Shown piece by piece: positions 11,001 through 33,409 of a DNA stretch of 36,857 nucleotides. The notes beneath the pieces are model-generated. The model ran no database searches, was not told where the DNA came from, and was given only the letters and a program-made list of their open reading frames with translations. Positions within the stretch are counted from its first letter, which is position 1. The number at the start of each line of letters is the position of its first letter. Source of the DNA: Betaproteobacteria bacterium (GTDB lineage Bacteria; Pseudomonadota; Gammaproteobacteria; Burkholderiales; Casimicrobiaceae). Location: assembly GCA_013298045.1 (NCBI GenBank), contig JAAFJI010000004.1:404-37260 (forward strand), read 5' to 3'. The translations under genes and the position numbers were made by a program.

Positions 11001-11376
11001 GCGGCGATTTCTCATTCGCAATCAGATACGGCGCGAGCTCTGTCTGAAGATTCGGCTCGTAAGCAAACGGGAACTTCTCAGCCGCCGGCTCCAAAAAGAA
11101 ATCAAACGGGTTGTACACCGCCATCTCGGCAACCACGTCCACCGTGACCTTGAATTCACGCGTTTTCTCCTCAAAAACGAGTCGCGCCATGTAATTGGCA
11201 AACGGATCTTGTTGCCAATTGCAAAAATGATCGGCGGGTTCAACGCGTTGGCTGTAAGAAATGATCCGCGTGCGACAGTGTGGCGCGGGACGCAATCGAA
11301 CGATCTGCGGGCCGAGCTTGACCGGACGGTCATAACGATAGTGCGTGATGTGGTTGAGCGCAACGTGAATGGTCAT
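8014..11376 (-). CDS. Large transglutaminase-like/DUF2126 fusion protein
   Basis: N-terminal MTIHVALNHITHYRYDRPVKLGPQIVRLRPAPHCRTRI (bacterial transglutaminase N-terminal region), catalytic-type SGSCRDSGWLLVQLLRHVGLAARFVSGYL and DLHAWCEVYLPGAGWIGLDPTSGLLAGEGHIPLACTP, followed by a DUF2126-like C-terminal region. Start probably 11376. Confidence 0.9.
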   Translation of the reverse strand: MTIHVALNHITHYRYDRPVKLGPQIVRLRPAPHCRTRIISYSQRVEPADHFCNWQQDPFANYMARLVFEEKTREFKVTVDVVAEMAVYNPFDFFLEPAAEKFPFAYEPNLQTELAPYLIANEKSPLITQYLEKVDRTPRRTVDFLVDLNAMLYRDLAYVIRMEPGVQTPEETLALKSGSCRDSGWLLVQLLRHVGLAARFVSGYLIQLTPDVKSLDGPSGTEVDFTDLHAWCEVYLPGAGWIGLDPTSGLLAGEGHIPLACTPQPSSAAPIEGGVDPCEVEFDHKMSVSRIYEAPRVTKPYSDAQWRDVLALGEKVDRDLIEGDVRLTMGGEPTFVANTDRDAPEWNIAALGPTKRDYAVSVIKRLYAKYGTGGALHFGQGKWYPGEQLPRWALSLFWRPDGKPVWSDPSLLADEKTRSKYTSDDAKRFVTTLTEKLGLTSETVTPGYEDAFHYLWRERRLAVNVTALDARLDDEIERERLRKVFDQGLKKVVGYVLPLAVDEDAIFAKAAASAAAGAKKQKTLGKLKSEWRTGAWHFRDGTMYLVPGDSAMGYRLPLDTLPWAAKEDANVMHDRDPFDHRDELGKLDDEAAVSKPLRNEAKPKRFESAKYLIRTALCVEVRNGALYVFMPPASRAEDYLALVGAVEATAETLGVHVMLEGYPPPRDPRLKVLQVTPDPGVVEVNIQPVHTWKELVENTEFLYQVAFEERLSAEKFALDGRHTGTGGGNHFVLGGATPADSPFLRKPELLTSLIAYWHNHPSLSYLFSGLFIGPTSQAPRVDEARNDQLYELEIAIQEVWKSRVTHGKSIPPWTIDRALRNILIDVTGNTHRSEFCIDKLYSPDGSTGRLGLLELRAFEMPPHARMSIAQQLLLRALVARFWKRPTHHALTRWGTTLHDRFMLPTFIDMDFKDVIEDLRAAENGGYEFDAAWFAPHFQFRFPLFGEIAVNGIEVSIRGALEPWHVMGEEGAPGGTARYVDSSLERLEVKVTGLNDLRYVITANGHALPLQPTGDEGSYVAGVRYKAWNPPSALHPSIAVHAPITFDIVDTWMHKSIGGCQYHVQHPGGANPGTFPINAYDAESRRLARFKRMGHTPGTIHVKPAKVSKEYPFTLDLRRVD

Positions 11377-11538
11377 GAACGACGAATTTGATGAAAACGA
11401 GAATTGATATGTCGCGAGCAAATGGCATGCCCGATACGCAATTGTCACCGCTTACATGCGCGCAACGATGGCTACAAACCCGTAACGTAATCGGATTGCT
11501 TACCGGAGCCAAGCAATTCGCGGCACGTAGTGTCCGTC

Positions 11539-11943
11539 CTACGCGCGCCTCGACTTGCCACCGCTGTTGCATGCAATCGCTTCGCGAATGAGCGCTTTGA
11601 ACGCGGTTGTACTGACGGCTTCACCCTCGTGAATGTCGATCGCGCGGCGCATGTTTCCGTCGAGACTTGAATTGAAGAGTTGCTTGGGGTCTTTGAGCGA
11701 AGCGCCCTTAGCGAAGGTGAGTTTCACTTTGTCTTTGTAGGTTTCACCTGTACAGATGATGCCATCGTGCGACCATACCGGCGTGCCTATGCATTTCCAC
11801 TCTTCGACAACGTCCGGGTCGGCTTCCTTGATGAGTTTGCGAACTGCGGCAAGCGTTTCGCCCCGCCAATCGCCGAGTTCGGCGATGCGCTCTGCGATGA
11901 GTGTGGACGCCGAGTTACCTTCGCTTGATTCCGGTTTCTTCAC
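11539..11943 (-). CDS. DUF1801 domain-containing protein
   Basis: ADPDVVEEWKCIGTPVWSHDGIICTGETYKDKVKLTFAKGASLKDPKQLFNSSLDGNMRRAIDIHEGE pattern. Confidence 0.8.
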   Translation of the reverse strand: MKKPESSEGNSASTLIAERIAELGDWRGETLAAVRKLIKEADPDVVEEWKCIGTPVWSHDGIICTGETYKDKVKLTFAKGASLKDPKQLFNSSLDGNMRRAIDIHEGEAVSTTAFKALIREAIACNSGGKSRRA

Positions 11944-11970: not shown

Positions 11971-12528
11971 TTACCACGCCGACCGATATTGAATCATGTA
12001 CGCGGCAGGTCCGTCGGGTGTAACGATTTTTTCGACGATTCGAAACCCGGCCTTTTCATAGCAACGAATCGCGCGCAAATTCGTGGGCGCGGGATCGGTT
12101 TGCACTTTGGTGACGCTCGGGTCGCGAAACAACATATCGACGAGCGCCCGCACGAGCTTTGTCCCAAGACCTTTGCCGAGCAAATGGGCGTCGCCAATTG
12201 ATTGGTCGATACCGCGAACGCCGGGATCGGTTTCGTTTTCCCACCAACCGTCGCCGGAGCCGAGCGCCACGTACGACTGCGCGTATGCGAAGGGCGTGTC
12301 ACCGAGCATTCCGATGTACGGCGTCACGCGCTCGGTTGCCATCACGCGCGGCAGGTAATGCGTTCGAACTTCTTCCATCGACGGTCGCCAACCGCCCCAC
12401 CATTCAACGATATGTGGCCGGTCGAGCCAATCGTGAAGCAGCGGTAAGTCTTCCTCGGTCATATGCCGTAAGGTGACTGGAGCTGAGGCGAAACCTATCG
12501 ACGTATTCAATTGATATTTCGCAACCAT
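11971..12528 (-). CDS. GNAT acetyltransferase closely resembling aminoglycoside 6'-N-acetyltransferase AAC(6')-Ib
   Basis: VTLRHMTEEDLPLLHDWLDRPHIVEWWGG...YAQSYVALGSGDGWWENETDPGVRGIDQ...LGKGLGTKLVRALVDMLFRDPSVTKVQTDPAPTNLRAIRCYEKAGF...TPDGPAAYMIQ. Confidence 0.85.
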   Translation of the reverse strand: MVAKYQLNTSIGFASAPVTLRHMTEEDLPLLHDWLDRPHIVEWWGGWRPSMEEVRTHYLPRVMATERVTPYIGMLGDTPFAYAQSYVALGSGDGWWENETDPGVRGIDQSIGDAHLLGKGLGTKLVRALVDMLFRDPSVTKVQTDPAPTNLRAIRCYEKAGFRIVEKIVTPDGPAAYMIQYRSAW

Positions 12529-12579: not shown

Positions 12580-13095
12580 TTACGTAATACGCGACACGCT
12601 CGCACGCAAGAGCGCGCGCGAATACGCCCGGTGAAATCCGAGTAGCGCTGAGAAGAGCCCGCCTAAGCGCTTCTCTCCCGTGCGTCGATCAATTTTCGGA
12701 ATGAGCGCAGAGCCGAAATAAAGCCGTGTCGCAAAAACGCCATGCGAGGATACGAACGACTCCGTCATCATCCATGAACGCGTTCGCCCCGACTGATCGG
12801 CGAGCAAAATTTGATCTGGTACGCGTCGCTCAACCTGCCAGACGGCGAAATCTTCGCGTTGACCGAGCGCAAGTTCGCGTGCTTCATGATCGGTGGTCGG
12901 TTTTCTTGCAAGAAAACGAAGAATGAGGCGTTCGAGCTTGAAAAGACGCGTGGTGTAGAACGCTTCGACGAATTCGGCGTGGGTGACCACACGATCGAGG
13001 TCGGTACGATAGCAGTCAACAAATGCACCGTCATCTCGCAACGGCAACAAGAGCGAGGACGATGGAGGTTCGCAATCCGCGATGGTTGCCATCAC
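12580..13095 (-). CDS. Conserved hypothetical protein
   Basis: 171 aa continuous ORF between the acetyltransferase and DJ-1 genes on the same strand; no family confidently recognised. Confidence 0.6.
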   Translation of the reverse strand: MMATIADCEPPSSSLLLPLRDDGAFVDCYRTDLDRVVTHAEFVEAFYTTRLFKLERLILRFLARKPTTDHEARELALGQREDFAVWQVERRVPDQILLADQSGRTRSWMMTESFVSSHGVFATRLYFGSALIPKIDRRTGEKRLGGLFSALLGFHRAYSRALLRASVSRIT

Positions 13096-13712
13096 GCGCT
13101 TAGAACACGCGGTTGTACAAGATAGGGCGAAATGTTTCTCATCGCGCGTTCGACGTACTCTTCCTTCTCGCCCACTGGCGCGACATAGTGCAACGCCGAG
13201 CGCGCGGCATCGACACCTTCCGTGCGGGCAATGATCCAGACCGCGAGATAAGGCGAAGAAAAACAGCCGCCAGCGGTTGCTACGTTACCGGAGGCATAGA
13301 ACGGTTGATTCAGGACTTCAACGCCGGCTTCCTGAACCCACGGCTTGGTGGTGAGATCGGTGCATGCAGGCACCGCGCCGAGGATGCCGAGCTTCGCGAG
13401 TACGAGTGTGCCGGAGCACTGCGCGGCAATCAGTTGCCGCGCGGGATCGAGGCGCAACGCCGACATGAGTTTGGTGTCGTTGACAACTTCGCGCGTTTTG
13501 ATACCGCTGCCGACGACGACGGCGTCGGCGGTTGCGATCTCAGCAAGCGTGGATTGCGCATGCACTGTGACCCCGTTCATCGACGTCACCATCGGCTCGG
13601 GGCAGCAAAGCGTGACGCGCCAATCGGGTTTCTTAATGCGATTCAAAACGCCTAGCGCGATCAGCGAATCGAGTTCGTTAAAGCCTTGAAACGTGAGTAT
13701 GGCGATATGCAT
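13092..13712 (-). CDS. DJ-1/PfpI family protein
   Basis: MHIAILTFQGFNELDSLIALGVLNRI...ADAVVVGSGIKTREV...IAAQCSGTLVLAKLGIL with nucleophile-elbow-like AAQCSG. Confidence 0.85.
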   Translation of the reverse strand: MHIAILTFQGFNELDSLIALGVLNRIKKPDWRVTLCCPEPMVTSMNGVTVHAQSTLAEIATADAVVVGSGIKTREVVNDTKLMSALRLDPARQLIAAQCSGTLVLAKLGILGAVPACTDLTTKPWVQEAGVEVLNQPFYASGNVATAGGCFSSPYLAVWIIARTEGVDAARSALHYVAPVGEKEEYVERAMRNISPYLVQPRVLSA

Positions 13713-17985: not shown

Positions 17986-19302
17986 TTACCCGTTCAACGC
18001 AGCAAATACATCGAAGTAAGTTGGAAACGTTTTGTTCACGCACTTTGGATCGTTGATGCGAACAGCGACACCACGTTCCGAGAGACTTGCGAGAGAAAAA
18101 CACATCGCGATGCGGTGATCGTCGTACGTGTCGATTGCTGCGTTTGCGTTGAGCTTCTGTGGCGGCGTCACGGCGATGTAGTCCACGCCCTCTTCAACCG
18201 TCGCGCCGAGTTTGCGAAGCTCGGCTGCCATCGCCGCGATCCGATCGGTTTCTTTCACCCGCCAGCTCGCAATGTTCGTGAGCTTTGTCGTCCCTTCGGC
18301 GAAGAGCGCGACGACAGCGAGCGTCATCGCGGCGTCCGGGATGTGATTCATGTCGGCTTGAATCGCTTTGAGCTTTCCGTTCGCAGGCGCGCTCGCGACG
18401 ATTGCGTTCGCTTCATACGAAATCTGTGCGCCCATTTGCGCAATTGCATCCGCAAATTTCACGTCGCCTTGCAACGCGTTTTGACCCACGCCTTCGACGC
18501 TAATCGGACCGCCGCCGATCGCGGCGGCGGCAATGAAGTACGACGCACTTGATGCATCGCCTTCGACGGCGTAGCTCCGAGGCGAAACGTAGCGAGTGGC
18601 TGGTACATGGAAGCGCTGCCAGCCGTCGCGCTCCACGTGGACGCCGAATTGCGTCATCATGGCGAGCGTGATTTCAATATACGGTTTGCTGATCAATTCG
18701 CCGACGACTTCGATCGTTGCTCGCTTGCCCGTGCGCGCCGTGACGAGCGGCAGCGCGATCAAAAGCCCTGTGAGAAATTGCGATGAAACATCGCCGCGAA
18801 TCGGAATTGGTTTATCGATTGCAATCGCACCGCCTTTGATCGAAAGCGGAGGAAAACCGACGTTGCCTGAGTAATCGACCGATGCGCCGATCTCTCGGAG
18901 CGCATCCACCAAATCGCCAATTGGTCTCTCGCGCATTCGCGGCACGCCATCAACGCGGTAGCGGCTCTCGCTCATCGCAGCGAGCGCGAGTGTGGCAACG
19001 AGCGAACGCGCTGCCGTGCCCGCATTGCCCACGAAGATATCGGCATCTTTGCCGCTGAATTCTCCGCCACAGCCTTGCACCGTGATTTCGCCGTCGCTAG
19101 AGAGATCGCTGCACATAACGCCCAACTTCGCAAGCGCACCGCGCATCACGCGCGTGTCGTCGGAATCGAGAAGACCAGTGAGCTCTGTGGTGCCGCCCGC
19201 GAGCGCCGCGAGGAGCAATGCACGGTTAGAGATGCTTTTTGAACCGGGGAGTCGAACGGTGCCGCTCACCCACGCGCGTGGCGCGAGATCAATGAATTCC
19301 AT
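17986..19302 (-). CDS. aroA: 3-phosphoshikimate 1-carboxyvinyltransferase
   Basis: [40 protein letters not shown] and [17 protein letters not shown]. Confidence 0.95.
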
Positions 19303-19420
19303 GATGACATTTTACGGACGGTAGTCGTTCGTGGTTTGCAGGGCGGAACTCGAAGAGATTCCGCCAAGCCGTTTGATCGTGCGCCGATGATTGAATTGAA
19401 TGCCTACTACATCAAGCACG

Positions 19421-19446
19421 CGTCGGATCCGCAAGCAATCCGACCT
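19421..19446. repeat. REP-like hairpin abutting the tyrA stop codon
   Basis: GTCGGAT-CCGCAAGCA-ATCCGAC-CTACG; minus strand CGTAGGTCGGATTGCTTGCGGATCCGACG. Confidence 0.5.
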
Positions 19447-20365
19447 ACGTCTCGCCGCCACTCGTGAATTTCGGCAACGGCTCGCCATGTTCGATGTGCC
19501 GCTGCCACGCGTTGCGCGCTGCGCTCGCGCGCGCGTAAGAGGCTTCAATCTGCGCAATGTCTTCGGCGGCTGCGGTGGCAAGCCAGCCATCAAATGCATC
19601 GAGCTTTTGGCGATAACGAGTGAGCTGCTCGCGCAGTGCGAAGCGATTAGCGGCGGAAATGTCCCGCCACATCTCGGGCGACCCGGCAGCAATTCGTGTG
19701 AAATCGCGAAACCCGCTCGCAGCGAACTTGAAGTAATCGTCCGCGCGCGGCGCGTCCGCGAGCATGTCGACCAACGCGAAGGCAAGCAAATGCGGCAGAT
19801 GACTTACCGCTGCAAACACATCGTCGTGGTCGCTCGCGGTCATACGATGAATGTCGGCACCGGCCGCGCGCCACATTGACTCCACCAATTCGACAGCACG
19901 AGTGTCGGTATCGGGCTCGCCGCAGACGACCACTTTTCGCTTTTCGTAGAGCGTCGCGAACGCGGCTGCGGCTCCGGTTTTCTCGGTCCCGGCAATCGGA
20001 TGCGCGGCGACAAACTGGCTGAATTTGTCTGCCAGCGATGCACGTGCGGCGGCGATCACGTCCTGCTTCGTGCTGCCACCATCGGTGACGACCGTCGTTG
20101 CAGCGAGATGCGGTTTTAGCGCGGCGAACACCGACGGCATTTGTGCGACCGGTGTGGCGAGAAAGACTATGTCCGCGCGCGCCGCCGCCTCCAAACTTAC
20201 GACTTCATCGATGATCCCGAGCGATAACGCCTGTTCAAGGTTTGCTTTCGATCGCCCTACGCCGAGCACGCGGCGAACCGAGCCGGCCGCCTTAAGCGAG
20301 AGTGCGAGCGATCCGCCGATCAGTCCGACGCCGACAACAGCGACGGTGTTTATGTGAAACGTCAT
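19445..20365 (-). CDS. tyrA: Prephenate dehydrogenase
   Basis: VAVVGVGLIGGSLALSLKAAG...VGRSKANLEQALSLGIIDEVV...ATPVAQMPSVF...AHPIAGTEKTGAAAA...AVSHLPHLLAFALV. Start likely 20365. Confidence 0.92.
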   Translation of the reverse strand: MTFHINTVAVVGVGLIGGSLALSLKAAGSVRRVLGVGRSKANLEQALSLGIIDEVVSLEAAARADIVFLATPVAQMPSVFAALKPHLAATTVVTDGGSTKQDVIAAARASLADKFSQFVAAHPIAGTEKTGAAAAFATLYEKRKVVVCGEPDTDTRAVELVESMWRAAGADIHRMTASDHDDVFAAVSHLPHLLAFALVDMLADAPRADDYFKFAASGFRDFTRIAAGSPEMWRDISAANRFALREQLTRYRQKLDAFDGWLATAAAEDIAQIEASYARASAARNAWQRHIEHGEPLPKFTSGGET

Positions 20366-20446
20366 AGCGATGATTCGATTTTCCCCAGGGCTCGATTGAA
20401 CCATAGGCACCTGACCGCCTCCATAGCAAGCTTGCACTTCGAATTG

Positions 20447-21040
20447 CTAGAGCAGCGCATATTGGGCGATCGGTGCGAAGGTTTTTCGATGCAGCTCACA
20501 GGGCCCCAAGCGCGCGATTGCGTCGAGATGCTGCGCCGTTCCGTAGCCTTTGTGTTTCGCGAACCCGTAGCCGGGGAAGCGGGCGTCTTGATCAATCATG
20601 AACGCGTCGCGCGCGGTTTTCGCGAGAATCGAGGCCGCACCCACTTCTTTTACTAGCGCGTCGGCTTTGGGCATTGCGCGCAGCGCGATATTTCGCTGCT
20701 CGGCCCAGGCGATGAGCGGCTTCGGGAGCTGGGTGCCGTCAACGATCACCTCTCGCACAACTTCAAGGCAATTGAGCCCAACGAACGATTCATACATCCC
20801 GCGAAGCGTCGCCTGAAGAATGTTGATCCGATCGATCACCGCCGCATCGACTGCGATCACAACCCATCCGAGCGCGTTTTCCTTGATCTCGACGGCGAGC
20901 GCGCTTCGCGCGGTCTCGGAGAGTTTTTTCGAATCATCGATACCTGCGATACGCGCGCCGCGCTCACCAAGCACGACAGCGGCGGCATATACAGGTCCTG
21001 CAAGCGGGCCGCGGCCGGCTTCGTCGATGCCGCACTTCAC
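20447..21040 (-). CDS. rnhB: Ribonuclease HII
   Basis: GIDEAGRGPLAGPVYAAAVVL...IDDSKKLSE...ASILAKTARDAFM. Confidence 0.95.
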   Translation of the reverse strand: MKCGIDEAGRGPLAGPVYAAAVVLGERGARIAGIDDSKKLSETARSALAVEIKENALGWVVIAVDAAVIDRINILQATLRGMYESFVGLNCLEVVREVIVDGTQLPKPLIAWAEQRNIALRAMPKADALVKEVGAASILAKTARDAFMIDQDARFPGYGFAKHKGYGTAQHLDAIARLGPCELHRKTFAPIAQYALL

Positions 21041-22209
21041 CCGCGAGTCCCGCGTTCGAGCATCGCCTGTACGGCGGCGACGTCTGGTGTTGGCTCACCC
21101 GGTGGCGGCAACAGGCTCTCTCGCAATGCGTCGAAGCGTGCCACCATCGCGTTGCGGCTGCTTGCGTCTTCGAGCAGATCGATCAGCGCCTGAGCGAGTT
21201 TTTGCGGGGTCGCATCGTGTTGCAATAGTTCTGGGACAAATTGCTCGCGCGCAAGAATGTTTGGCAGCGACACATACGGCAGGGTGAGTTTGCGTTTCAC
21301 AATCAGGTGAGTGAGTGCGCTGACGCGATACGTCACAACGTGCGCACATCCATGCATCGCGGCTTCGAGGCTCGCAGTGCCTGAGGCAATCAAACCGACG
21401 TCAGCCGCGCGCAGCGCGAAATCCGCATGACCGAACATGAGATCGACCCGCGAAGCAATTGCTTCGCCATGCCGCCACAGTGCGCTCTCGAAAATCGCGC
21501 GGGTTTCGCGATCGACGAGCGGCACCAGAAAGCGAGCGCGCGGACGAGCGCGCGCAACAATTTCAATGGTGTTGATAAACAATTCCGAATGAAACTTGAG
21601 TTCGCTCACCCGTGAACCAGGCAACACCGCAATAAACTCATCTGTCTGCTCGTCGTCCTTGAACTTCGACAAACTCGCGCGGAGATCGGCTCTTGGCGTA
21701 CCGACCAGTGGGCTCTGTGCGAGTGGGTGGCCGACGAAACTCGCCTCGACACCGTACGGCGCGAGTAGCGCTGGCTCGAACGGGAACACACAAAGCATAT
21801 GATCGAGCGATTCATGGAAACGTCGCGCACGCTCCGCGCGCCACGCCCAAAACGAAGGGCACACGTAGTGCATCGTCTTCACGCCGTGCGCTTTGATCTG
21901 CCTCTCCACGCGCAAATTAAAGTCGGGCGCATCGACACCGATATAGAGCGCAGGTCGCAAGGACTTCACCCGCGCGATCAGGTCGCGTTTAAGTCGAAAG
22001 ATGCGCGGCAGGGCTGAAAACACCTCTGCATAGCCGCGCACCGCGAGCGTTGCCGAGTCGAACCATTGTTCGACGCCAGCTGCGCGCATCTTCGGTCCGC
22101 ATACACCGAAAAAGCGTACGCTCGAATCTGTCTTTCGCACCGCCTCGACCAGATGCGCAGCGAGCTGGTCGCCGGAGGCTTCCCCGGCGACGATCACGAC
22201 GTCGCGCAT
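21037..22209 (-). CDS. lpxB: Lipid-A-disaccharide synthase
   Basis: VIVAGEASGDQLAAHLV...FGVCGPKMRAAGVE...YIGVDAPDFNLRVE...PSFWAWRAERARRF...LPGSRVSELKFH. Confidence 0.95.
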   Translation of the reverse strand: MRDVVIVAGEASGDQLAAHLVEAVRKTDSSVRFFGVCGPKMRAAGVEQWFDSATLAVRGYAEVFSALPRIFRLKRDLIARVKSLRPALYIGVDAPDFNLRVERQIKAHGVKTMHYVCPSFWAWRAERARRFHESLDHMLCVFPFEPALLAPYGVEASFVGHPLAQSPLVGTPRADLRASLSKFKDDEQTDEFIAVLPGSRVSELKFHSELFINTIEIVARARPRARFLVPLVDRETRAIFESALWRHGEAIASRVDLMFGHADFALRAADVGLIASGTASLEAAMHGCAHVVTYRVSALTHLIVKRKLTLPYVSLPNILAREQFVPELLQHDATPQKLAQALIDLLEDASSRNAMVARFDALRESLLPPPGEPTPDVAAVQAMLERGTRG

Positions 22210-23001
22210 CTAACGAGCCAACCCGCGACCGGTCACCGAGAGAAACGCAATCAACGGCGAGAGTGTCCGCTTCACGGCATCGTTGCCAACGTCATGCATC
22301 GTTTGCAAATCGATCTTTGCCTCGGCAAGCACTTTCCCGGAGCGCCAGATCAACTTGTGTACGGCGCGCACGGCCGCCACCGAGTCGGCATCGAATCCGC
22401 GACGCTTAAGCCCTTCAAGATTTACACCACTCACGGTGAACGGATTGCCGTTACCCAGTGCGTAGGGCGCGACGTCCTGCAGCACACAGGCGCAGCCACC
22501 GATCATCGCGTGGGCACCGACGCGCGAGAATTGATGAACCGCGGCGAGACCACCGACGATCGCGAACTCATCGACATCGACATGCCCGGCCAGGGTCGCC
22601 GCATTGGCGAGAATGACGTCGTTGCCGACGCGGCAGTCATGCGCGACGTGCGCGTAGGCCATGACCAGGATGCGCGAACCGAGCTTCGTTAGGCCACGAT
22701 CTTGCGCAGTACCGCGATGAATCGTGCAGCTTTCGCGAAACACGTTGTCGTCGCCAATGACGAGACGCGTCGGCTCGCCCGCGTATTTCTTGTCCTGCGG
22801 CGCGAGTCCGATCGATGCGAACGGATAGAACGTATTGCGTGCGCCAATCGTCGTGTCACCTTCGATTGCAACATGCGAAATCAGTTTACTGCCCGAGCCG
22901 ATCGTCACCTTCGCTCCGATCGTGCAAAACGGTCCGACCTCGACATCGTCGGCGAGCTCTGCGTGCGGATCGACAATCGCCAACGCGTGAATCTTTGCCA
23001 T
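22210..23001 (-). CDS. lpxA: UDP-N-acetylglucosamine acyltransferase
   Basis: MAKIHALAIVDPHAELADDVEVGPFCTIGAKVTIG; hexapeptide repeats; ESCTIHRGTAQD. Start likely 23001. Confidence 0.95.
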   Translation of the reverse strand: MAKIHALAIVDPHAELADDVEVGPFCTIGAKVTIGSGSKLISHVAIEGDTTIGARNTFYPFASIGLAPQDKKYAGEPTRLVIGDDNVFRESCTIHRGTAQDRGLTKLGSRILVMAYAHVAHDCRVGNDVILANAATLAGHVDVDEFAIVGGLAAVHQFSRVGAHAMIGGCACVLQDVAPYALGNGNPFTVSGVNLEGLKRRGFDADSVAAVRAVHKLIWRSGKVLAEAKIDLQTMHDVGNDAVKRTLSPLIAFLSVTGRGLAR

Positions 23002-23002
23002 A

Positions 23003-23485
23003 TCAGCCGACCTCGAGCGCCGCAATCAACGTGGCTTCTGTCGCGAGTTTTCCATCGACGGTCGCGCGGCATTTGAATTTGCCGATGTTGCGCATGATGC
23101 GATCGATTTCTACCGACAGAATCAATTGATCGCCGGGGACGACCATTTTTTTGAAACGCGCGTCGTCGATGCCCGCAAGATAGACGATGCGCTGTTTGTT
23201 CGGATCGCTCGCGATCACCGATTCGTACGCGAGCACCGCAGCGGCCTGCGCCAGGGCCTCGATGATGAGCACCCCGGGCATCACCGGCTCGGACGGAAAA
23301 TGACCGTTGAAAAACGGTTCGTTGATCGTCACGTTTTTAAGCGCCGTGATGCGTTTGCCTTTTTCGATCGATGTCACCCGATCAATCAACAGGAACGGGT
23401 AACGATGCGGCAGGAGCGCGCGAATCCGCGCGATGTCAAGGCTGACGGGTACGCCGTTCGCGGCCGTCGTGTGCTGATCGCTCAT
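23003..23485 (-). CDS. fabZ: 3-hydroxyacyl-ACP dehydratase FabZ
   Basis: [58 protein letters not shown]. Confidence 0.95.
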
Positions 23486-24508
23486 TTATGACTCCGTGGT
23501 GTCTTTCTTCTTGCTAGATGATTTTGCACTGCGTCGCAGATTCCCGGCCATGCGCAACCATTCGCGATGCGTTCCGTACGGAAACACGGCGGTGTATCGG
23601 CCTTTCTCGCGAATCGAGTCGGTCACATAAGTTGCCCCGGAGATCACCACGTCGTCGCAAATTTCGATGTGACCTTGAATCATCGCAGCGCCGCCAATCA
23701 TGCAGCGTTTGCCGATCACAGCGCTTCCGGCAATACCCGCGCAACCGGCAATCGCTGTGTGCTCGCCGATGTGCACGTTATGCGCGATCTGCACCAGATT
23801 GTCGATCTTGACCCCGTTGCCAATCACCGTGTCCTCGATTGCGCCGCGATCAATGCAGGTATTCGCGCCGATTTCCACATCGTCGCCGATCCACACACCA
23901 CCCACTTGCGGAACCTTAAGCCAACCGTTTGCGCTCGGCTGAAAACCGAAGCCGTCGGAGCCGATGACTGCGCCGGACTGGATCACACAGCGATCGCCGA
24001 TGCGCACGCCGCTATTGACGACGACGCCGGCATAGATCACGCAATCGCGCCCGATTTGGACATTTGCACCGATTTGGACGCCGGAATGAATTGTGGTGCC
24101 TGCACCGATATAGCTTTTTTCTCCAATGCCGCAGTGATCTGCGATATTCACATCGTTTAATACAGAAGTAGAGTGATACGTGGAATGCTTACTAAGCCCA
24201 ACAAACAGCGGCTTGTCGGAAAAAAGCTCGTTCAACAGCCTAATGAAATCAAGATGCGGTCCGGCGCTCACAATGTGCGCAACGCCGGGTGGTAGCGCTG
24301 TGTCCGCCGGCGCGATCAGAGCCGTCGCCTCGCAGGCAGCGAGGGCAGCGATGTGGCGCTTGTCGGAGAAAAAAGACAGATCGCCCGCGCGCGCAACCTT
24401 AAGGCTTGCGACGGCGGTCACCAACCGGTCGGGATCGCCGCGCACGGTCGCACCGAGGCGCTCGGCAATGGTGCCGACAGACAGCGGCGTGGGCAGTGTT
24501 CGTGGCAT
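23486..24508 (-). CDS. lpxD: UDP-3-O-acylglucosamine N-acyltransferase
   Basis: Hexapeptide repeats; [76 protein letters not shown]. Start likely 24508. Confidence 0.95.
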
Positions 24509-24714
24509 GGTCGATTTTTCTCGTAATCCGTTCAAGCGAATCGTGAACGGCCCAGTGTCTCAGGCTCAACGCCGAGCAACGATCCTTGTACGGCTAAATT
24601 GCAAGCGTGTTGTCGAAAGACCAAGTGCGTCGGCCGCCGCACCGTGACGCCCTTCGTGGTTCTGCGACAACGACAGCGCGTGGCAAACCGCGCGCGACTC
24701 GATCTGCCACACCG

Positions 24715-25275
24715 TCACTCGGCAAGCGCTTTGAGCACACGCTCGGTGATGTCGATGCGCGGGTGGACATAGACCGCGTCTTGGAGGATCAAATCAAACT
24801 TTTCGGTCTCGGCGATCCGCTGTATCACGCGCTGCGCGCGCTCCTGCAACGCTGCGACCTCTTCGTTCATTCGCAGATTTTCGTCCTCGCGGAGCTCGCG
24901 CTGAGCGCGCTGCAAGTCGCGGCTCATCGTCTCCAGCTCGCGCTGTCGGGTGCGCCTCGCGTCGTCGGACATGCCGAGTGAGTCCTTATCGAATGCGCTT
25001 GACGCATCGCGGAAGCGCTTCGCTAGTTTTTCGACTTCGGCCTGTCGCGTGGCGAATTCTCGTTCGAGTTTTTTCGTCGCCCGTTGCGCGAGCGTAGATT
25101 CGCGCAACAACTTCGCGGTATTGACGAAGCCAATTTTGAGCTCGCTGCCCCGCGATGCTGTCCCGGTGCCCGCAGGAGATTGCGCAATTGCGACCGATAG
25201 AAATCCCAAACTAGCGACGAGCGTCATCAACGCGCGACCGACCACCAGAGAACTCAATATTTCAAAACGCTTCAT
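24715..25275 (-). CDS. skp: OmpH/Skp family periplasmic chaperone
   Basis: LKIGFVNTAKLLRESTLAQRATKKLEREFATRQAEVEKLAKRF...; position between bamA and lpxD. Confidence 0.9.
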   Translation of the reverse strand: MKRFEILSSLVVGRALMTLVASLGFLSVAIAQSPAGTGTASRGSELKIGFVNTAKLLRESTLAQRATKKLEREFATRQAEVEKLAKRFRDASSAFDKDSLGMSDDARRTRQRELETMSRDLQRAQRELREDENLRMNEEVAALQERAQRVIQRIAETEKFDLILQDAVYVHPRIDITERVLKALAE

Positions 25276-25283
25276 CGTGTAGG

Positions 25284-27677
25284 CTAGAACAGCGTTCCGA
25301 CCTGGAACTGGAATCGCTGAATTCTATCGTCAGGCTTTTTGCCGAGCGGCAGCCCGTAGCTGAACTTAAGCGCGCCGATGGGCGACTTCCAGGCAATTGC
25401 GACGCCGGCGGATAGGTGCACACGTTCGTTGTCCTTCTGCAGCGGATCGCCTTTGTCGTAGACTTGGCCTGCATCGAAGAACACGCTGCCGCGCACCGAT
25501 TTGTCGTTTTTGGTGCCAGGAAACGGAAACAGCAATTCGTTGTTGATCGTGAATTTTCGACGACCGCCAATCGCGCTGCCGTTGTAGCGCGTCGTGCTGG
25601 TCTCGGTGCCATCGGGGTTGCGCGTGGTCGTCGTCACCGCTTCTTTCGGTCCGAGCGAATTGGTGTCATATGTGCGCACCGAGCCGACGCCGCCGCCGTA
25701 GTAATTCTGGAAGAAGGGCAGCGACGCGCCGCCGTAGCCGTTGCCGTAACCGGCTTCGATGTTGACGCCGTAGACCAGGCCCGCGTAGATTGGAACGAAG
25801 TACTGACCTTGGTAGTTGAACTTGTAGTACTTGACTTTCGTGACCGGCAGCGTCGCTTCGACACCGATGCTTTGCAACCAGCCACGGGTCGGGTATTCGA
25901 TACTGTCGCGGCTATCGCGCGCCCAGCCGCTTTGCAGCTTATAGGTGTTGGTGTTAGTTCCGAACTCTTTCGTGTAATCGAAAAAGCGCTGCGGACTGAT
26001 CCCGGGTGTAAGCGTCAGCCGGGAATTCTCGGCAGACAAGCCTGCGCTCACGCTGTCAGTTTCGCTAATAGGAATGCCGAAGCGGGTGCCCGCGCCGTAG
26101 GTCGACAAGATGTAGCTACCGCCGCCAGTGGAGGTCGGGTCATACGTGCGGCGATAAATATCGACACTGCGGCTCACCCCGTCCGGCGTGAAATAGGGGT
26201 TGGTGTAGCCGAGCACCGCAGTTTTAGATGCACGGCTGGTATTGACCTGAATGGCGAGCGCATTGCCGGTACCGAGTACGTTGTTCTGCGACATCGAGGC
26301 CGACAGCACAAGTTTTTCCGCACTCGAATAGCCGGCACCGGCGTTGATGCTACCGGTGTTTTTCTCTTTCACGGTGACGTCGATATCGACCTGATCGTTC
26401 ACCGCAGCGACCGCCTGGTTATCCATCGTGACTTCTTCGAAAAAGCCCAGGCGATCAAGGCGTACCTTCGAGCGCTGAATTTTTGCCTGGTCGTACCACG
26501 ACGCTTCAAGCTGGCGCATTTCGCGACGAATCACCTCGTCGCGTGTTTGGACGTTACCTGCGATGTTGATACGACGCACATAGACACGTCGCCCCGGATC
26601 AATGACGTAGTTGAAGGCAACGGTTTGCTTCTCACGATCGATTTCCGGCACCGTATTGACGTTTGCGAACGCGTAGCCTTCGCGCCCCAGGCGGTCGCTG
26701 ATGGCTTTTGCTCCATCGGCGAGTCTGGTGCGGTTAAAGACATCACCGGTACGCACTGGAATCAACGAACGAAGCTCCGCCTCGGGAAGCAGCAATTCGC
26801 CGCTGAGGGTAACGCCAGCGATCGAGAATTTCGCGCCCTCGGAAATATTGATCGTGATGTAGACCTGCGATTTATCAGGCGACAGCGACACTTGCGTCGA
26901 TTCGACATTGAATTCGAGATGGCCGCGATTGGTGTAATACGCGCGGATTGCCTCAAGGTCGGCTTGCAGTTTTTGCTTCGAGTACTGATCGTCTTTGGTA
27001 TACCAGGAAAACCAGCCGCCCCGAGAGAGCTGCATTTGATCCAAAAGCACTTTTTCGGCCACGGCGTTTGCGCCGATGATGTTTATCGATTCGATGCGTG
27101 CGACCTCGCCCTCTTTCACCTCAATCGAGATTCCGGTGCGATTGCGCTCAAGCGGAGTAAGCGTGGTGGTGACGTCCACATCGTAGCGACCGCGCGACAG
27201 GTATTGCTTTTTGATTTCCTGCTCCGCACGATCTAGCACCGTACGATCAAGAATCCGCCCTTCAGAGAGCCCTGCATCGCGCAGTGCCTTCTTCAGCGTG
27301 TCTTTGTCGAACTCTTTGGCACCGACGATGTCGATCGAGGCGACCGTCGGACGCTCGACGACCGTAACGATCAACACCCCCTCCTGTGCTTCGACCCGAA
27401 CGTCTTTGAAGAAACCCGTCTCAAAAAGCGTCTTGATTGCTTTCGAGGCAGCTGCCTGGTCGAAACGATCGCCGACTTTCACACCCAGATAGTTAAACAC
27501 TGTGCCCGGATCGGTGCGCTGCAAGCCCTCGACACGAATGTCGCGAACCACGAACGATTCTTGGGCGATCGCGACCGCGACGGTCGAGACTACACCGGCG
27601 ACCGCGAGAGCACGCGCAAGTCGTCGGAGGCGGATTGTGGGAGCAGACGAAGAAGAGAGAGACAAATGACGGGTCAC
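25284..27677 (-). CDS. bamA: Outer membrane protein assembly factor BamA
   Basis: POTRA-type FVVRDIRVEGLQRTDPGTVFNYLGVKVGDRFD; C-terminal Omp85 barrel ending RIQRFQFQVGTLF. Confidence 0.96.
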   Translation of the reverse strand: MTRHLSLSSSSAPTIRLRRLARALAVAGVVSTVAVAIAQESFVVRDIRVEGLQRTDPGTVFNYLGVKVGDRFDQAAASKAIKTLFETGFFKDVRVEAQEGVLIVTVVERPTVASIDIVGAKEFDKDTLKKALRDAGLSEGRILDRTVLDRAEQEIKKQYLSRGRYDVDVTTTLTPLERNRTGISIEVKEGEVARIESINIIGANAVAEKVLLDQMQLSRGGWFSWYTKDDQYSKQKLQADLEAIRAYYTNRGHLEFNVESTQVSLSPDKSQVYITINISEGAKFSIAGVTLSGELLLPEAELRSLIPVRTGDVFNRTRLADGAKAISDRLGREGYAFANVNTVPEIDREKQTVAFNYVIDPGRRVYVRRINIAGNVQTRDEVIRREMRQLEASWYDQAKIQRSKVRLDRLGFFEEVTMDNQAVAAVNDQVDIDVTVKEKNTGSINAGAGYSSAEKLVLSASMSQNNVLGTGNALAIQVNTSRASKTAVLGYTNPYFTPDGVSRSVDIYRRTYDPTSTGGGSYILSTYGAGTRFGIPISETDSVSAGLSAENSRLTLTPGISPQRFFDYTKEFGTNTNTYKLQSGWARDSRDSIEYPTRGWLQSIGVEATLPVTKVKYYKFNYQGQYFVPIYAGLVYGVNIEAGYGNGYGGASLPFFQNYYGGGVGSVRTYDTNSLGPKEAVTTTTRNPDGTETSTTRYNGSAIGGRRKFTINNELLFPFPGTKNDKSVRGSVFFDAGQVYDKGDPLQKDNERVHLSAGVAIAWKSPIGALKFSYGLPLGKKPDDRIQRFQFQVGTLF

Positions 27678-29044
27678 GAGAAGATGCGTAGAAAATCGTT
27701 ATAGAGCGCGAGCGCGGTGAGCGAGGTGACGAATCCAATGCCGATTCGCTGCCCGAGGATGAGTGCGCGCTCGGTCGGCGGCGACCCTTTGATTGCTTCC
27801 CAGAGATGATATAGCAACTGACCACCATCCAACATCGGAACCGGAAGCAGGTTAAGCACGCCAATCGAAATACTGACGATGGCGAGGAATAGCAAGAATG
27901 GCGTCGAGCCCTGCTTGAGTGTGACCCCCGCCCCTTCAGCCATCGTAATCGGACCTGACACCTGGCGCAGCGACACCTCGCCGCTCAACATGCCCCACAG
28001 CACGCGCACGGTCAGCGTCGTGGCTTCGCCAGTGCGATACAGCCCCTCGACGAGAGCCCCGACCACGCCGCGCTCGGCGCTCGACGCGAGTCCGATCTTC
28101 TCGTCCAATAAATTTGCCGGGGTTACCTCTATCCGGCCGATCTCGCGCTGACCCGAGCGCACCGCTTTCGGAATCACTGTCGTCGCGAGCGTCGTCCCGT
28201 CGCGCGAAATCGAAAGCGCTACTTCGCGCTGCGGCGCAGCTTGAATCCGCTGCGTCAACTCCATCCATTCGTTGATCGCCTGGCCGTTGATCTCGACAAC
28301 GCGATCGCCCGCGCGAAGCCCCGCGCGCGCCGCCGGTCCACCTTCAACAACACTGCCGATGACTGGCGGCTGAAACAGTCCAATGCCCCAGTTGGCTGTG
28401 CCTTTGCCGACGCCGTCGGCTTGAACTGCAGCGTCGCTGCGATTGAGCGCGATCTCTCGCTCAATGCCGCGATCGTTTACGGTCAACCGAATCGAATCGG
28501 AGAACATGTGAGCCAGCAAGTGCCAGCGAACGTCGCTCCAATCGAGCACTTCGCGACCATTGATCGATTTCACGGTTTCACCGCCTCGCAGTCCACCTGC
28601 CGCCGCAGCACTCTGCGCAGGCGGCGTTGCGAGCACAGCGATCACGCTTCGCTCGGGCATCGAAAGCGCTGCGCCGTAGAGCACGACCGCGAGTAGAAAA
28701 TTGGCGAGCGGTCCAGCGGCCACGATCAACGAACGTTTCCAAAGCACCTGCCGATCGAAGGCTTGGGCGGCTTCAGCATCGTTCTTCGGCGGAAATTCTT
28801 CGTCGCGCGTATCGAGCATGCGCACGTAGCCGCCGAGCGGAATCGCAGAGATCGCAAATTCGCTGCCTTTGAACACGCTGCGTTTTCCGATCCAGCGCAG
28901 AAGCACCGGACCGAAACCCACCGAGAAACGAATCACTTTGACGCCGCACCAACGCGCGACCAAATAATGACCGAACTCGTGCACCGTTACAAGAATCGCA
29001 ACCGCGAGCAGGAATCCGATGAGGGCACTTCCGAAAATACTCAT
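27674..29044 (-). CDS. rseP: RIP metalloprotease RseP (site-2 protease)
   Basis: VTVHEFGHYLVARWCGVKVIRFSVGFG (HExxH), PDZ-like regions, NLLPVPMLDGGQLLYHLWEAIKGSP. Confidence 0.95.
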   Translation of the reverse strand: MSIFGSALIGFLLAVAILVTVHEFGHYLVARWCGVKVIRFSVGFGPVLLRWIGKRSVFKGSEFAISAIPLGGYVRMLDTRDEEFPPKNDAEAAQAFDRQVLWKRSLIVAAGPLANFLLAVVLYGAALSMPERSVIAVLATPPAQSAAAAGGLRGGETVKSINGREVLDWSDVRWHLLAHMFSDSIRLTVNDRGIEREIALNRSDAAVQADGVGKGTANWGIGLFQPPVIGSVVEGGPAARAGLRAGDRVVEINGQAINEWMELTQRIQAAPQREVALSISRDGTTLATTVIPKAVRSGQREIGRIEVTPANLLDEKIGLASSAERGVVGALVEGLYRTGEATTLTVRVLWGMLSGEVSLRQVSGPITMAEGAGVTLKQGSTPFLLFLAIVSISIGVLNLLPVPMLDGGQLLYHLWEAIKGSPPTERALILGQRIGIGFVTSLTALALYNDFLRIFS

Positions 29045-30234
29045 GCAACGACGCTTTCGCGCTTTTGAGCAAATTGCTTCACGAACGATTGCGCGATCTC
29101 GCGTGTTGACCGGTCGCGGGAAAACACATCGTCAAGCGAGGCGGGTTCGCGGGTGTCCGCGCGCGCGAGCGTTTGCTCAACGAGCGGCACGATCTGCGTG
29201 AAACGAATTTCGCGATTCAAGAACGCGGCCACAGCAACTTCATTGGCGGCGTTCAATGCGAGACAACTGCCCTGCCCCGCTCGCAGCGCAGCATAAGCAA
29301 GATTGAGTGCGGGATAGCGTTGATGATCCACCTCGAAGAATTCCAAACGTCCGACCTTCGCGAGTGAAAACCGTTCAATGTCCAACGACAATCGATTCGG
29401 ATGCCCCATTGCGTGGGCGATTGGCACCTGCATATCGGATGGGCCGAGATGCGCCAAAATCGATCCGTCCGTCATTTCCAATAGGGCATGAACAGAACTC
29501 GTTGGATGAATGAGCACATGAATATCGTCGGCGGGGCGATTGAACAAAAGTGACGCCTCGATCACCTCCAACCCTTTGTTCATTAGTGTCGCCGAGTCGA
29601 CCGAAATTTTGCGCCCCATGTCCCAGGTCGGGTGCTTGCAAGCCTCATCGGGCGTGATGGTGTCGAACGTGTTGACAGCGCGCAAACGAAACGGTCCGCC
29701 CGAAGCGGTAAGCGTGATCGCGCGCACCCGTGAGGGCTCGCAATGCATGCCGTTCGCACACTGATACACGGCGTTGTGTTCACTGTCGATCGGCAGAATC
29801 GTTGCGCCCTTTTCTTCCGCGAGCTTGAGCAACAAATGGCCCGATGCGACAAGCGCTTCTTTGTTCGCCAGCAGCACGGTCTTTCCAGCAGCGACCGCAG
29901 CCCACGTTGAAGGCAAACCTGCAAATCCAGAAATACCGGCCACGACGATGTCTGCATTCGCCATCGCCGCGCATGCGTTCACTGCATCTACGCCGCCCTC
30001 GACGCGAACCAATGGCTGGTGACGCGACATCGCGGATTTCAATTGCACTGCCGCGTCAACATCGCTCATCGCAACGACTTCGGGCTCAAACTCGTCGATG
30101 ATCGACAACATCGCTTGCCAATTGCCATTCGCGGCGACGGCGAGCACGCGAAACTTGTCGCGATGCTGGCGAATGACTTTCAGCGTGCTATCGCCGATTG
30201 AGCCCGTTGCACCTAGGATGATGACGTTCTTCAT
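29041..30234 (-). CDS. dxr: 1-deoxy-D-xylulose-5-phosphate reductoisomerase
   Basis: NVIILGATGSIGDSTLKVIRQH...DMGRKISVDSATLMNKGLEVIEA. Start likely 30234. Confidence 0.95.
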   Translation of the reverse strand: MKNVIILGATGSIGDSTLKVIRQHRDKFRVLAVAANGNWQAMLSIIDEFEPEVVAMSDVDAAVQLKSAMSRHQPLVRVEGGVDAVNACAAMANADIVVAGISGFAGLPSTWAAVAAGKTVLLANKEALVASGHLLLKLAEEKGATILPIDSEHNAVYQCANGMHCEPSRVRAITLTASGGPFRLRAVNTFDTITPDEACKHPTWDMGRKISVDSATLMNKGLEVIEASLLFNRPADDIHVLIHPTSSVHALLEMTDGSILAHLGPSDMQVPIAHAMGHPNRLSLDIERFSLAKVGRLEFFEVDHQRYPALNLAYAALRAGQGSCLALNAANEVAVAAFLNREIRFTQIVPLVEQTLARADTREPASLDDVFSRDRSTREIAQSFVKQFAQKRESVVA

Positions 30235-30238
30235 CGCA

Positions 30239-31105
30239 TCATTTCCACATCGGAACAACGAAACTCAGCAGGAAGGTCGCCACCGGCAAGACCGCGAGCT
30301 GCGCATCGATTCGGTCGAGCACGCCGCCGTGACCGGGCAGCAAATGGCTCGAATCCTTCACGCTGGCCTGCCGCTTCAATTGCGATTCCCACAAATCGCC
30401 GATCACAGCTAAAGCTCCGATCGCCCCGCCAAATAGGGCGACAGCCACAATCATGGAAACATTCGATAATAGATTCAAATAGCTCATTGCGCCCAGCGAC
30501 CAAAGGCTTGCAGCGACGATGCCAGCTATTGCACCCTCGCGCGACTTGCCTGGACTGATGGCGGGTGCGAGTTTCACGCGACCGAACTTACGACCGAAGA
30601 AATACGCAGCAACGTCAGCGACCACGGTCAACACCACGACCGCGACCAAGTGCCAGACGCTCACGCGATAGAGCGCCACGGCCGAGAGCCACGCTGAAGC
30701 GATCAATACGGCAAAGATCACTCGTCCGGACACCGATGAAATGTCGATTGCGCGTCGCGAGAGTTGCAATGGCGCAATCGCAACCCAAAACACCGCGACC
30801 GCGACAAGAACCATCGTGAGCAATATCGCTGAGCTCGCGCCTTCATGCAACGAATAAGCGACGAAGGCAATCGCAGCAACGCTTAAGAGCATTTGCAGCG
30901 CAATCGCTGGCTTCGATGCGAGTCGCGCGCCTTCCCATGCTGCAGCGAGACAAAACACCGTAACCAGCGCGGCCCAAAGATGCAAATTACCAATCGCAAG
31001 CACGGCGATCACGACTGCAGCGAGCACCAACGCTGTCGCAAGCCGCGTTGGCAAATCCGATTTCTTTTTGACGACCGGCGGCGTGTTTTGGGCGGGCGAG
31101 CTCAC
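30239..31105 (-). CDS. cdsA: Phosphatidate cytidylyltransferase
   Basis: DVAAYFFGRKFGRVKLAPAISPGKSREGAIAG...GDLWESQLKRQASVKDSSHLLPGHGGVLDRIDA. Confidence 0.95.
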   Translation of the reverse strand: MSSPAQNTPPVVKKKSDLPTRLATALVLAAVVIAVLAIGNLHLWAALVTVFCLAAAWEGARLASKPAIALQMLLSVAAIAFVAYSLHEGASSAILLTMVLVAVAVFWVAIAPLQLSRRAIDISSVSGRVIFAVLIASAWLSAVALYRVSVWHLVAVVVLTVVADVAAYFFGRKFGRVKLAPAISPGKSREGAIAGIVAASLWSLGAMSYLNLLSNVSMIVAVALFGGAIGALAVIGDLWESQLKRQASVKDSSHLLPGHGGVLDRIDAQLAVLPVATFLLSFVVPMWK

Positions 31106-31106
31106 A

Positions 31107-31835
31107 TTAGACCTTCACCGTCTCGCGCAAACCAACATCGCCACGCACCTGTTCACCGGTTTGACCGAAGCGACGTTCACGATTGGCAAACCAGACAACT
31201 GCCGCGTCGAATTCGGCTTCGCCGAAATCGGGCCACAGCACATCTGTGAAGTAGAGCTCGGTATAGGCCATTTGCCAGAGCAAAAAATTGCTGATGCGAC
31301 GCTCTCCACCGGTTCGAATGAACAGATCCGGATCGGGTTGATCGGCGAAGGCCAGATGTTTTTCGAAGTTCGCTGCGTCGCCTGCGGCGCTCGCACGCGC
31401 AACCGCCTGCTCAATGTCCCAGCGGCCGCCGTAGTTCACGGCGACGTTAAATGTTTGCGTGACGTTATTGCGGGTCAACGCTTCGGCATCGGCGATGAGT
31501 TTCTGAATCTCCGGTGCAAGCGCCGGCAGATCGCCGATTGCGCGAAAGCGAATACCGTTCTCATGAAGCTTTTGAATTTCCTCGCGCAAGGCTTTGAAGA
31601 AAAGCTCCATCAGATACGAAACTTCGTCTTGGGGCCGTTTCCAATTTTCACTGCTGAACGCGAATACGGTGAGATGCGTCACACCATGTTTCGCCGCAGA
31701 GCGCAGCAAGGTGCGCACTGCTTCGACGCCTTGACGATGTCCCGCCACTCGCGGCAAAAAGCGCTTCTGCGCCCAGCGCCCATTGCCATCCATGACCACG
31801 ACGACGTGGCGAGGTGAGGCGTATTTAGTTGACAC
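31107..31835 (-). CDS. uppS: Isoprenyl (undecaprenyl diphosphate) transferase
   Basis: HVVVVMDGNGRWAQKRFLPRVAGHRQGVEAVR...VNYGGRWDIEQA...DLFIRTGGERRISNFLLWQMAYTELYFTDVLWPDF. GTG start at 31835 plausible. Confidence 0.94.
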   Translation of the reverse strand: MSTKYASPRHVVVVMDGNGRWAQKRFLPRVAGHRQGVEAVRTLLRSAAKHGVTHLTVFAFSSENWKRPQDEVSYLMELFFKALREEIQKLHENGIRFRAIGDLPALAPEIQKLIADAEALTRNNVTQTFNVAVNYGGRWDIEQAVARASAAGDAANFEKHLAFADQPDPDLFIRTGGERRISNFLLWQMAYTELYFTDVLWPDFGEAEFDAAVVWFANRERRFGQTGEQVRGDVGLRETVKV

Positions 31836-31878
31836 GGACGAGCGAGAAATTAGTGAAATGACGAGCGCTAGTTCGGCA

Positions 31879-32436
31879 CTAAACCGACAACAGCTCGGCT
31901 TCCTTAGCCGCAAACATTTTGTCGATTTCCTTGATCGTGTTGTCGGTCATCTTCTGCACGGCGTCCTGCGCGCCACGCTCTTCATCTTCCGAAATTTCTT
32001 TTCTCTTGAGCGCGTCTTTGAACGCGTTGTTCGCATCGCGGCGAACGTTGCGGACGGCCACACGCGAATCTTCGGCCTCGCTTTTCACGAGCTTCACCAA
32101 CTCTTTGCGGCGCTCTTCGCTCATCATCGGCATCGGCACGCGAATGATGTCGCTATTGACCGAGGGATTCAATCCGAGATCGGCCTCGCGAATGGCTTTT
32201 TCGACAACTTGGATCATCTTCTTTTCGAACGGCTGCACACCAATGGTACGAGCGTCGAGCAATGTGACGTTGGCCACACCCGTGATCGGCGTCATCGCGC
32301 CGTAGTATTCGACTTGCACTGTATCGAGCATTCCGGCATGCGCGCGGCCGGTGCGCACTTTGGTGAAATTGTTCTTCAGCGCTTCAAGCGCTTTCGCCAT
32401 TTTGGTTTCGGCTGTCTTTTTAGCTTCAGCAATCAT
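31879..32436 (-). CDS. frr: Ribosome recycling factor
   Basis: [52 protein letters not shown]...[16 protein letters not shown]. Confidence 0.96.
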
Positions 32437-32527
32437 GTTCTATGCCTCATTGAATGGTGTTTTTTCACACAAATCAAATATTTTCGATAAGCAATTTAAT
32501 TGCCTTCAATAAAAAATTTAAAGCGGC

Positions 32528-33253
32528 TTAGCAGGTTACGGTTGTACCTTCATCTTCGCCGCAAACCACCCGCTTGAGCGCACCTGCCTTGAAAATCGAA
32601 AACACGTTCAAGCGCAAATTCTGGTCGCGGCAAAGCGCGAGCGCGGTGGCGTCCATCACCTTTAAGTTTTTCACGATCGCCTCATCGAATGTAAGCGACG
32701 AATATCGCGTGGCGGTCGGGTCTTTCATCGGGTCGGCGGTGTACACGCCGTCGACCTTAGTCGCCTTCAATACGAGATCGGCGCTGATCTCGCGACCGCG
32801 CAGCGCAGCACCGGTGTCGGTGGTGAAAAACGGGTTGCCGGTGCCTGCGGCAAAGATCACGATCTTGCCCTCTTCGAGGTAGCGCAGCGCCTTGCCGCGA
32901 ATGTAGGGCTCGGCGACCGAATCGATACGAAGTGCAGATTGCACCCGCGCCGCGAGTCCTCCTCGGCGCATGGCATCCGCGAGCGCCAAGGCGTTCATGA
33001 CCGTTGCAAGCATGCCCATGTAATCCGCAGTCGCGCGATCCATGCCGACCGCGCTCGGCGCGATGCCGCGGAAGATATTGCCGCCGCCGATCACGACCGC
33101 GATTTCAACGCCCATGTCGTGCACTTCCTTGATCTCGGCGACGATGCGGTCGATCACCAACGGATTGATCCCGTAAGCGTCTTCGCCCATCAGCGCTTCG
33201 CCGGAAAGTTTGACCAGGATACGTTTGAAAGCGGGGGTGGGCGTGCTCGACAT
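32528..33253 (-). CDS. pyrH: UMP kinase
   Basis: [55 protein letters not shown]. Start likely 33253 ([11 protein letters not shown]). Confidence 0.96.
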
Positions 33254-33372
33254 AACCTGTAAGTTTAGCGCGTCCCTTTGATCGTCAGGAGCGGCGATCA
33301 CCGCGATCATTTCTTCGTTTGCCGGGATGATTTTGTGAGTGATCGCGACCAAGGTCGCTCCCACTAGGAAAC

Positions 33373-33396
33373 GAAAAACGGCTCCGAAGAGCCGTT
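33373..33396 (-). terminator. Intrinsic terminator between tsf and pyrH
   Basis: Minus strand AACGGCTC-TTCG-GAGCCGTT-TTTCG: 8-bp stem, UUCG tetraloop, T tract. Confidence 0.8.
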
Positions 33397-33409
33397 CTTT
33401 CAAATACCG

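Follow-up and report, generated by a model that had tools for sequence, protein, structure and literature searches.

The locus considered here raises the question of how an aac(6')-like gene lying among ordinary chromosomal genes of a betaproteobacterium is related to the mobile resistance genes that it resembles, and whether it may encode a working enzyme. AAC(6') enzymes are among the commonest causes of clinical aminoglycoside resistance, with aac(6') annotated in 21% of 657,603 isolates (PMC11672645), and a large-scale screen for such enzymes notes that, for most resistance genes, the recent origin is not known (PMC10400643). The reading that we favour, with a probability of roughly 0.8, is that the gene encodes a functional AacA4-family acetyltransferase, is a resident and patchily distributed chromosomal gene, and belongs to a side branch of a chromosomal pool rather than to the source of the mobile lineages. 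The window, by which we mean the whole stretch of 36,857 nucleotides that was analysed, is part of a 44-kb contig in a draft genome of 3.7 Mb (346 contigs) that holds a single copy of the gene. Its relevant features are as follows.

11539..11943, minus strand: DUF1801 protein (Pfam PF08818, E 1.8e-19), directly downstream of the acetyltransferase gene after a 27-base gap
11971..12528, minus strand: AacA4-family (AAC(6')-Ib/II type) aminoglycoside 6'-N-acetyltransferase of GNAT fold, 185 aa (open reading frame, NF012165, TIGR04431, Pfam Acetyltransf_8, model against 2vqy/1v0c)
12580..13095, minus strand: hypothetical protein of 171 aa, directly upstream after a 51-base gap, with no Pfam or NCBIfam match
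13092..13712, minus strand: DJ-1/PfpI-like protein (Pfam PF01965, E 1.5e-13), overlapping the hypothetical gene by 4 bases
17986..33403, minus strand: core cluster of aroA, tyrA, rnhB, lpxB, lpxA, fabZ, lpxD, skp/OmpH, bamA, rseP, dxr, cdsA, uppS, frr and a pyrH-like gene (Pfam)

The contig is chromosomal, because the core cluster from pyrH to lpxB, together with tyrA and aroA, lies on it. The genes for the DJ-1-like protein, the hypothetical protein, the acetyltransferase and the DUF1801 protein are co-oriented, the gaps between them being -4, 51 and 27 bases, and a four-gene minus-strand operon is plausible given the overlap between the first two. The base composition of the acetyltransferase gene (GC 0.570, GC3 0.640) matches that of its surroundings (GC 0.569 across the window) and is thus native. 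Among the neighbours in the window, only the DJ-1 gene and the hypothetical gene recur near other acetyltransferase copies: in genome G011 a DJ-1 orthologue is found 7.4 kb away from the acetyltransferase gene, and in locus L029 a homologue of the hypothetical gene, 53% identical, is 1.1 kb away from it. As a clue to function the gene neighbourhood yielded no neighbour family beyond a few loci or spurious antisense reading frames. The window also encodes, at 8014-11448, a protein of 1144 aa found in most genomes of the genus at 74-81% identity over the matched parts, the start of which resembles transglutaminase-like proteins by eye.

The acetyltransferase gene begins with ATG and is an intact reading frame of 185 codons, and all of the blocks singled out by the first-pass annotation (PHIVEWWGG, YAQSYVALGSGDGWWENETDPGVRGIDQ, LGKGLGTKLVRAL, NLRAIRCYEKAGF and TPDGPAAYM) occur in its translation. 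On the curated NCBIfam equivalog models, the protein scored 305 bits against AAC_6p_set_A (NF012165; E 1.3e-91, cut-off 280) and 301 bits against the AacA4 family (TIGR04431; E 2.9e-90, cut-off 260), and its Pfam match is Acetyltransf_8. The NCBI models would thus already call it an AacA4-family acetyltransferase, which makes it, as judged from sequence, a new member of a known family. The AAC(6')-Ib allele model (NF033074) gave 269.7 bits against a cut-off of 400, which places the protein outside the Ib allele group proper, and the allele-level models for IIc, A40 and 31 likewise gave scores under their cut-offs. Identity is 67-68% to AAC(6')-IIa, the closest named allele, 66% to IIc and 64% to AAC(6')-Ib, the last of which supplies the closest solved relatives (PDB search, E 9e-78). 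The initial description of the protein as nearly identical to AAC(6')-Ib in blocks is therefore right in that the similarity is far above chance, but the global identity is moderate. The accompanying label, AAC(6')-Ib-like, suits the AacA4 (Ib/II) family and is slightly off within it, as AAC(6')-IIa is the nearest named allele and position 119 holds Ser, which is the gentamicin-type state of AAC(6')-II. Of the outcomes that the first-pass annotation gave as refuting it, neither low global identity to AAC(6')-I enzymes nor placement in a non-aminoglycoside GNAT clade was found. The Trp and Asp residues that the -cr variant of AAC(6')-Ib replaces (W104R and D181Y) are both unchanged in the alignment, as had been read from the DNA, and the protein is not of the -cr type.

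The gene is patchily distributed. Intact copies are present in 7 of 18 genomes of the genus (the window genome included) and in 2 of 47 in the rest of the family. Genome G048, from another genus of the family, carries a decayed copy (L113, 1877-2178 in G048:C134) in which the N- and C-terminal parts lie in different frames and the middle is missing. Compared with the window gene, the copies of the genus show 62-73% identity; their loci are unrelated, except that G011 shares the DJ-1 gene. Only four matches came from 400 genomes sampled evenly across the order: three in the genus of the window and one in G151, the coordinates of which agree with those of the class 1 integron copy of Comamonas testosteroni NFYY023. 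When 85,462 species genomes were scanned, 80 loci were recovered. Some are known mobile copies accompanied by integron features; the others are chromosomal and come mostly from Burkholderiales (Ramlibacter, Variovorax, Hydrogenophaga, Xenophilus, Acidovorax, Rubrivivax, Ideonella, Polaromonas and MAGs), with deeper copies in Gemmatimonadota and others.

The AlphaFold model of the protein (pLDDT 89) has the GNAT fold and superposes on AAC(6')-Ib crystal structures (2vqy, 1v0c, 2bue) that carry kanamycin C, paromomycin or ribostamycin, with an rmsd of 0.8-0.9 A and TM scores of 0.88-0.94. Across the wider set of AAC(6')-Ib, -Ib' and -Ib11 structures (PDB 1v0c, 2bue, 2vqy, 2prb, 2qir, 2pr8), sequence identity rises to 68-69% over the structural core. 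In AF479774 numbering, which is used throughout for AAC(6')-Ib residues, changes at Y80, D117, Y166, E167 and F171 abolish or shift resistance (mutant table of Ramirez et al., 2013; PMC3656343). These five residues and Q118 are all kept in the window protein, with D117 represented by Asp108; L120 is conservatively replaced by Ile, and Gln118-Ser119 corresponds to the Ib'/II state, in contrast to the amikacin-type Leu119 of AAC(6')-Ib. As the single change L119S renders AAC(6')-Ib gentamicin-resistant and amikacin-susceptible, that is, type II (PMC3656343), a type II profile is predicted for the window protein. We infer that the gene is expressed and its product active, in which case the enzyme would use acetyl-CoA to acetylate aminoglycosides of the 4,6- and 4,5-disubstituted classes at their 6'-amino group, with Asp108 in the essential position, and would, on the strength of Ser119, act on gentamicin, tobramycin and kanamycin and weakly on amikacin.

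The main rival to this reading is that the protein is a GNAT with some other native substrate, such as a sugar amine, polyamine or peptide, and that aminoglycosides are acetylated only incidentally. Resistance is suspected not to be the function for which some chromosomal AAC(6') enzymes evolved, as discussed for AAC(6')-Ii (PMC11672645); the more distant structural neighbours of the model are siderophore acyltransferases and spermidine acetyltransferases, and no antibiotic-related genes adjoin the window gene. However, the residues that give the aminoglycoside site its shape are conserved, and the gene is dispensable, being patchy within its genus and decayed in G048, which fits an accessory protective function better than a housekeeping one. 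We therefore regard another native substrate as unlikely, though as deserving more weight than any other rival.

No homolog of the class 1 integrase (intI1), qacE, sul1, tnpR or IS26 was found anywhere in the window, and no attC-like pair was found beside the gene or elsewhere in the window, so that the original description of its neighbours as chromosomal and free of intI and attC stands alongside the core cluster. The gene is accordingly without the marks of an integron cassette, namely a following attC site and a nearby integrase or 3'-conserved segment. The attC scan included a margin upstream of the stop codon, since the R'' box overlaps it, and was positive in 19 of 31 mobile control copies. 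By comparison, AAC(6')-IIa, which shares 67-68% identity over almost its full length, Gln-Ser at 118-119 and the same catalytic residues, is a mobile integron cassette on plasmids of Enterobacter, Aeromonas and Pseudomonas, whereas the window gene is chromosomal, is not followed by attC and has a two-residue deletion in the WWGG-xx-RP loop, common to the copies in G005, G011 and G013.

Integrons are nonetheless present among its relatives, and it is conceivable that chromosomal integrons moved the gene among Burkholderiales chromosomes and that it is a former cassette, its attC site having since been lost. Integron integrases above the TIGR02249 cut-off occur in 8 of the 18 genus genomes (G005, G007, G013, G015, G010, G001, G009 and G006), that of G005 lying at C1:694194-695132 (L150). 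The integrases of seven of these eight, which were compared, are 59-70% identical to IntI1, the range being 56-70% for eight when that of G048 is added, and well-formed attC sites were found in three of the eight integrase regions compared. Further, a 1,053-base contig from a related genus of the same family (L008 = G019:C448) carries an AAC(6')-family gene with an attC-like site on either side. The site at 305-362 is clear (7/7 core, 7/8 L-box complementarity), while that at 921-1001 is weaker, and its first box overlaps the stop codon in just the way seen in clinical cassettes. The L008 homolog belongs to a deeper-branching lineage and is approximately 60% identical to the window gene; the family thus probably occurs in the environment as a cassette too, with the qualification that the contig is short and its binning uncertain. 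However, none of the 7 genus copies and none of the 47 other chromosomal copies passed the attC test beside the gene, L008 itself narrowly missing the L-box cut-off. In the window genome no integron integrase exceeds the TIGR02249 cut-off, and in the complete genome G005 the aac(6') gene and the integrase are unlinked, some 2 Mb apart. A lost-attC history is thus improbable, and we return to the view that the gene is a resident, if patchy, accessory gene of a Burkholderiales chromosome and not an integron cassette.

The phylogeny places the window gene inside the family of the AAC(6')-Ib and -II enzymes, in a separate and supported clade. One tree was rooted on AAC(6')-Ie and -Ian, and a second was built without the long-branch rows and far outgroups; the main result was unchanged. 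The window clade (support 98/91) holds ten genes, those of the window, G005, G011 and G013, two from Ramlibacter, one each from Pseudorhodoferax and Xenophilus arseniciresistens, and two from MAGs, all of them chromosomal Burkholderiales genes and none mobile. The mobile genes form three clades (IIa, IIc and Ib) nested among chromosomal genes, with weak backbone support near them; the Ib clade includes two Pseudomonas-borne genes and one non-mobile gene, L087. The L087 gene, on a contig (JAAFJU010000097.1) of a MAG labelled Synechococcales, is approximately 72% identical to Ib and 77% to IIa, and the contig is possibly a mis-binned Burkholderiales contig. A single clade of the seven genus copies is rejected (p-AU 1.4e-5), so that the gene has either passed from one lineage to another or been lost repeatedly from an ancient set. 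Relatives of the window gene are maintained under purifying selection, as dN/dS is approximately 0.13-0.21 in four of five unsaturated family pairs and 0.38 in the fifth, with 0.17 for L003/L035, the pair closest to the window gene.

These relationships bear on whether the mobile aac(6')-Ib/II cassettes descend from the window gene, or from its host, as a recent progenitor. The gene is chromosomal, lacks integron features and belongs to the family of the mobile genes, and the part of the earlier suggestion that called it an environmental relative is upheld. The progenitor role is very improbable, however, and is rejected on identity and tree position: the gene is just 64-68% identical to the mobile alleles at the amino acid level, its clade holds no mobile gene, and the chromosomal gene of Variovorax paradoxus 110B, at 79-80% to AAC(6')-IIa, is much nearer to a mobile gene. 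In the published framework for such origins (Ebmeyer et al., 2021; PMC7782503), identities are far higher, confirmed origins of aminoglycoside genes showing 95-99% nucleotide identity and a value of 78% or less being judged inconclusive for FOX in Aeromonas caviae. By those standards even the Variovorax gene is too distant for a recent origin, and the window gene combines a best mobile match of 67-68%, where some 95% or more would be expected, with a locus that is not conserved in its genus. The converse, that the host recently acquired a clinical aac(6') gene from the mobile pool, accords with the patchiness and differing loci of the gene in its genus but is the least credible alternative of all, and is refuted by the identity ceiling (none of 72,556 plasmid records searched exceeds 80% identity to the window protein, AAC(6')-IIa being the best match) and by native composition, with the absence of integron remnants from the window and the chromosomal nature of its nearest relatives also against it.

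The gene, which we regard as resident, sits instead on a side branch of an old chromosomal pool made up mostly of Burkholderiales genes; the mobile lineages IIa, IIc and Ib branch inside this pool as well. The window gene shares a clade or the pool, and the lack of an adjoining attC, with chromosomal AacA4 genes of Ramlibacter, Variovorax, Hydrogenophaga, Xenophilus, Rubrivivax, Polaromonas and Methylibium MAGs, but comes from another species and is at most some 75% identical to any of them. The nesting of the mobile AAC(6')-II/Ib lineages in such a pool may be new. A literature search, with most subscription papers outside its reach, found no paper that describes this nesting, no stated Burkholderiales origin for aac(6')-Ib and no other named source for it, and the available portion of the 2021 survey lists AAC(6')-Ih and shows no source for aac(6')-Ib (PMC7782503). 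An attC-based study predicts other source taxa, Xanthomonadales and Spirochaetes, for several aacA cassettes (PMC8352920); these predictions concern the origin of attC and need not agree with that of the gene.

Residue 119 offers a further view of the mobile lineages. The amikacin-type Leu119 is found in 1 of 54 non-mobile genes and in 11 of 31 mobile genes, the 11 all in the Ib clade, which suggests, from sequence comparison, that Leu119 is the derived state. Across 88 homologs the position is Ser or Phe in nearly all non-mobile genes, and the sole chromosomal exception with Leu119 is L071, from a Rubrivivax MAG. It is possible, although we put the odds somewhat below even, that one Burkholderiales-centred chromosomal pool gave rise at least twice to the clinically dominant cassettes aac(6')-Ib, -IIa and -IIc, transfer having run from chromosome to cassette; that capture could have taken place there, since some genera of the order, the window's among them, carry both the gene and IntI1-like chromosomal integrons; and that the ancestors had Ser119 or Phe119, with Leu119 arising later within the mobile Ib line. 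Forcing all mobile genes into one clade costs 20.5 log-likelihood units (p-AU 0.034), a marginal result for a grouping chosen after the tree had been seen. Such a pool is plausible because Burkholderiales, including several of the same genera, are the original hosts of the dfrB trimethoprim-resistance genes (Kneis et al., 2024; PMC11662351), non-mobile copies of which occur in Variovorax, Polaromonas, Ramlibacter, Acidovorax and Rhodoferax and mobile variants in class 1 integrons. The precedent concerns an unrelated enzyme, for which chromosomal copies near the named variants exist, whereas the best for aac(6') is 80%.

By itself, the window gene is one more environmental member of its family. 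Together with its relatives, it points to Burkholderiales as a place to look for the sources of aac(6'), with the predictions that the window enzyme would have gentamicin-type activity and that nearer progenitors would be found in Variovorax, Rubrivivax, Acidovorax and their kin.
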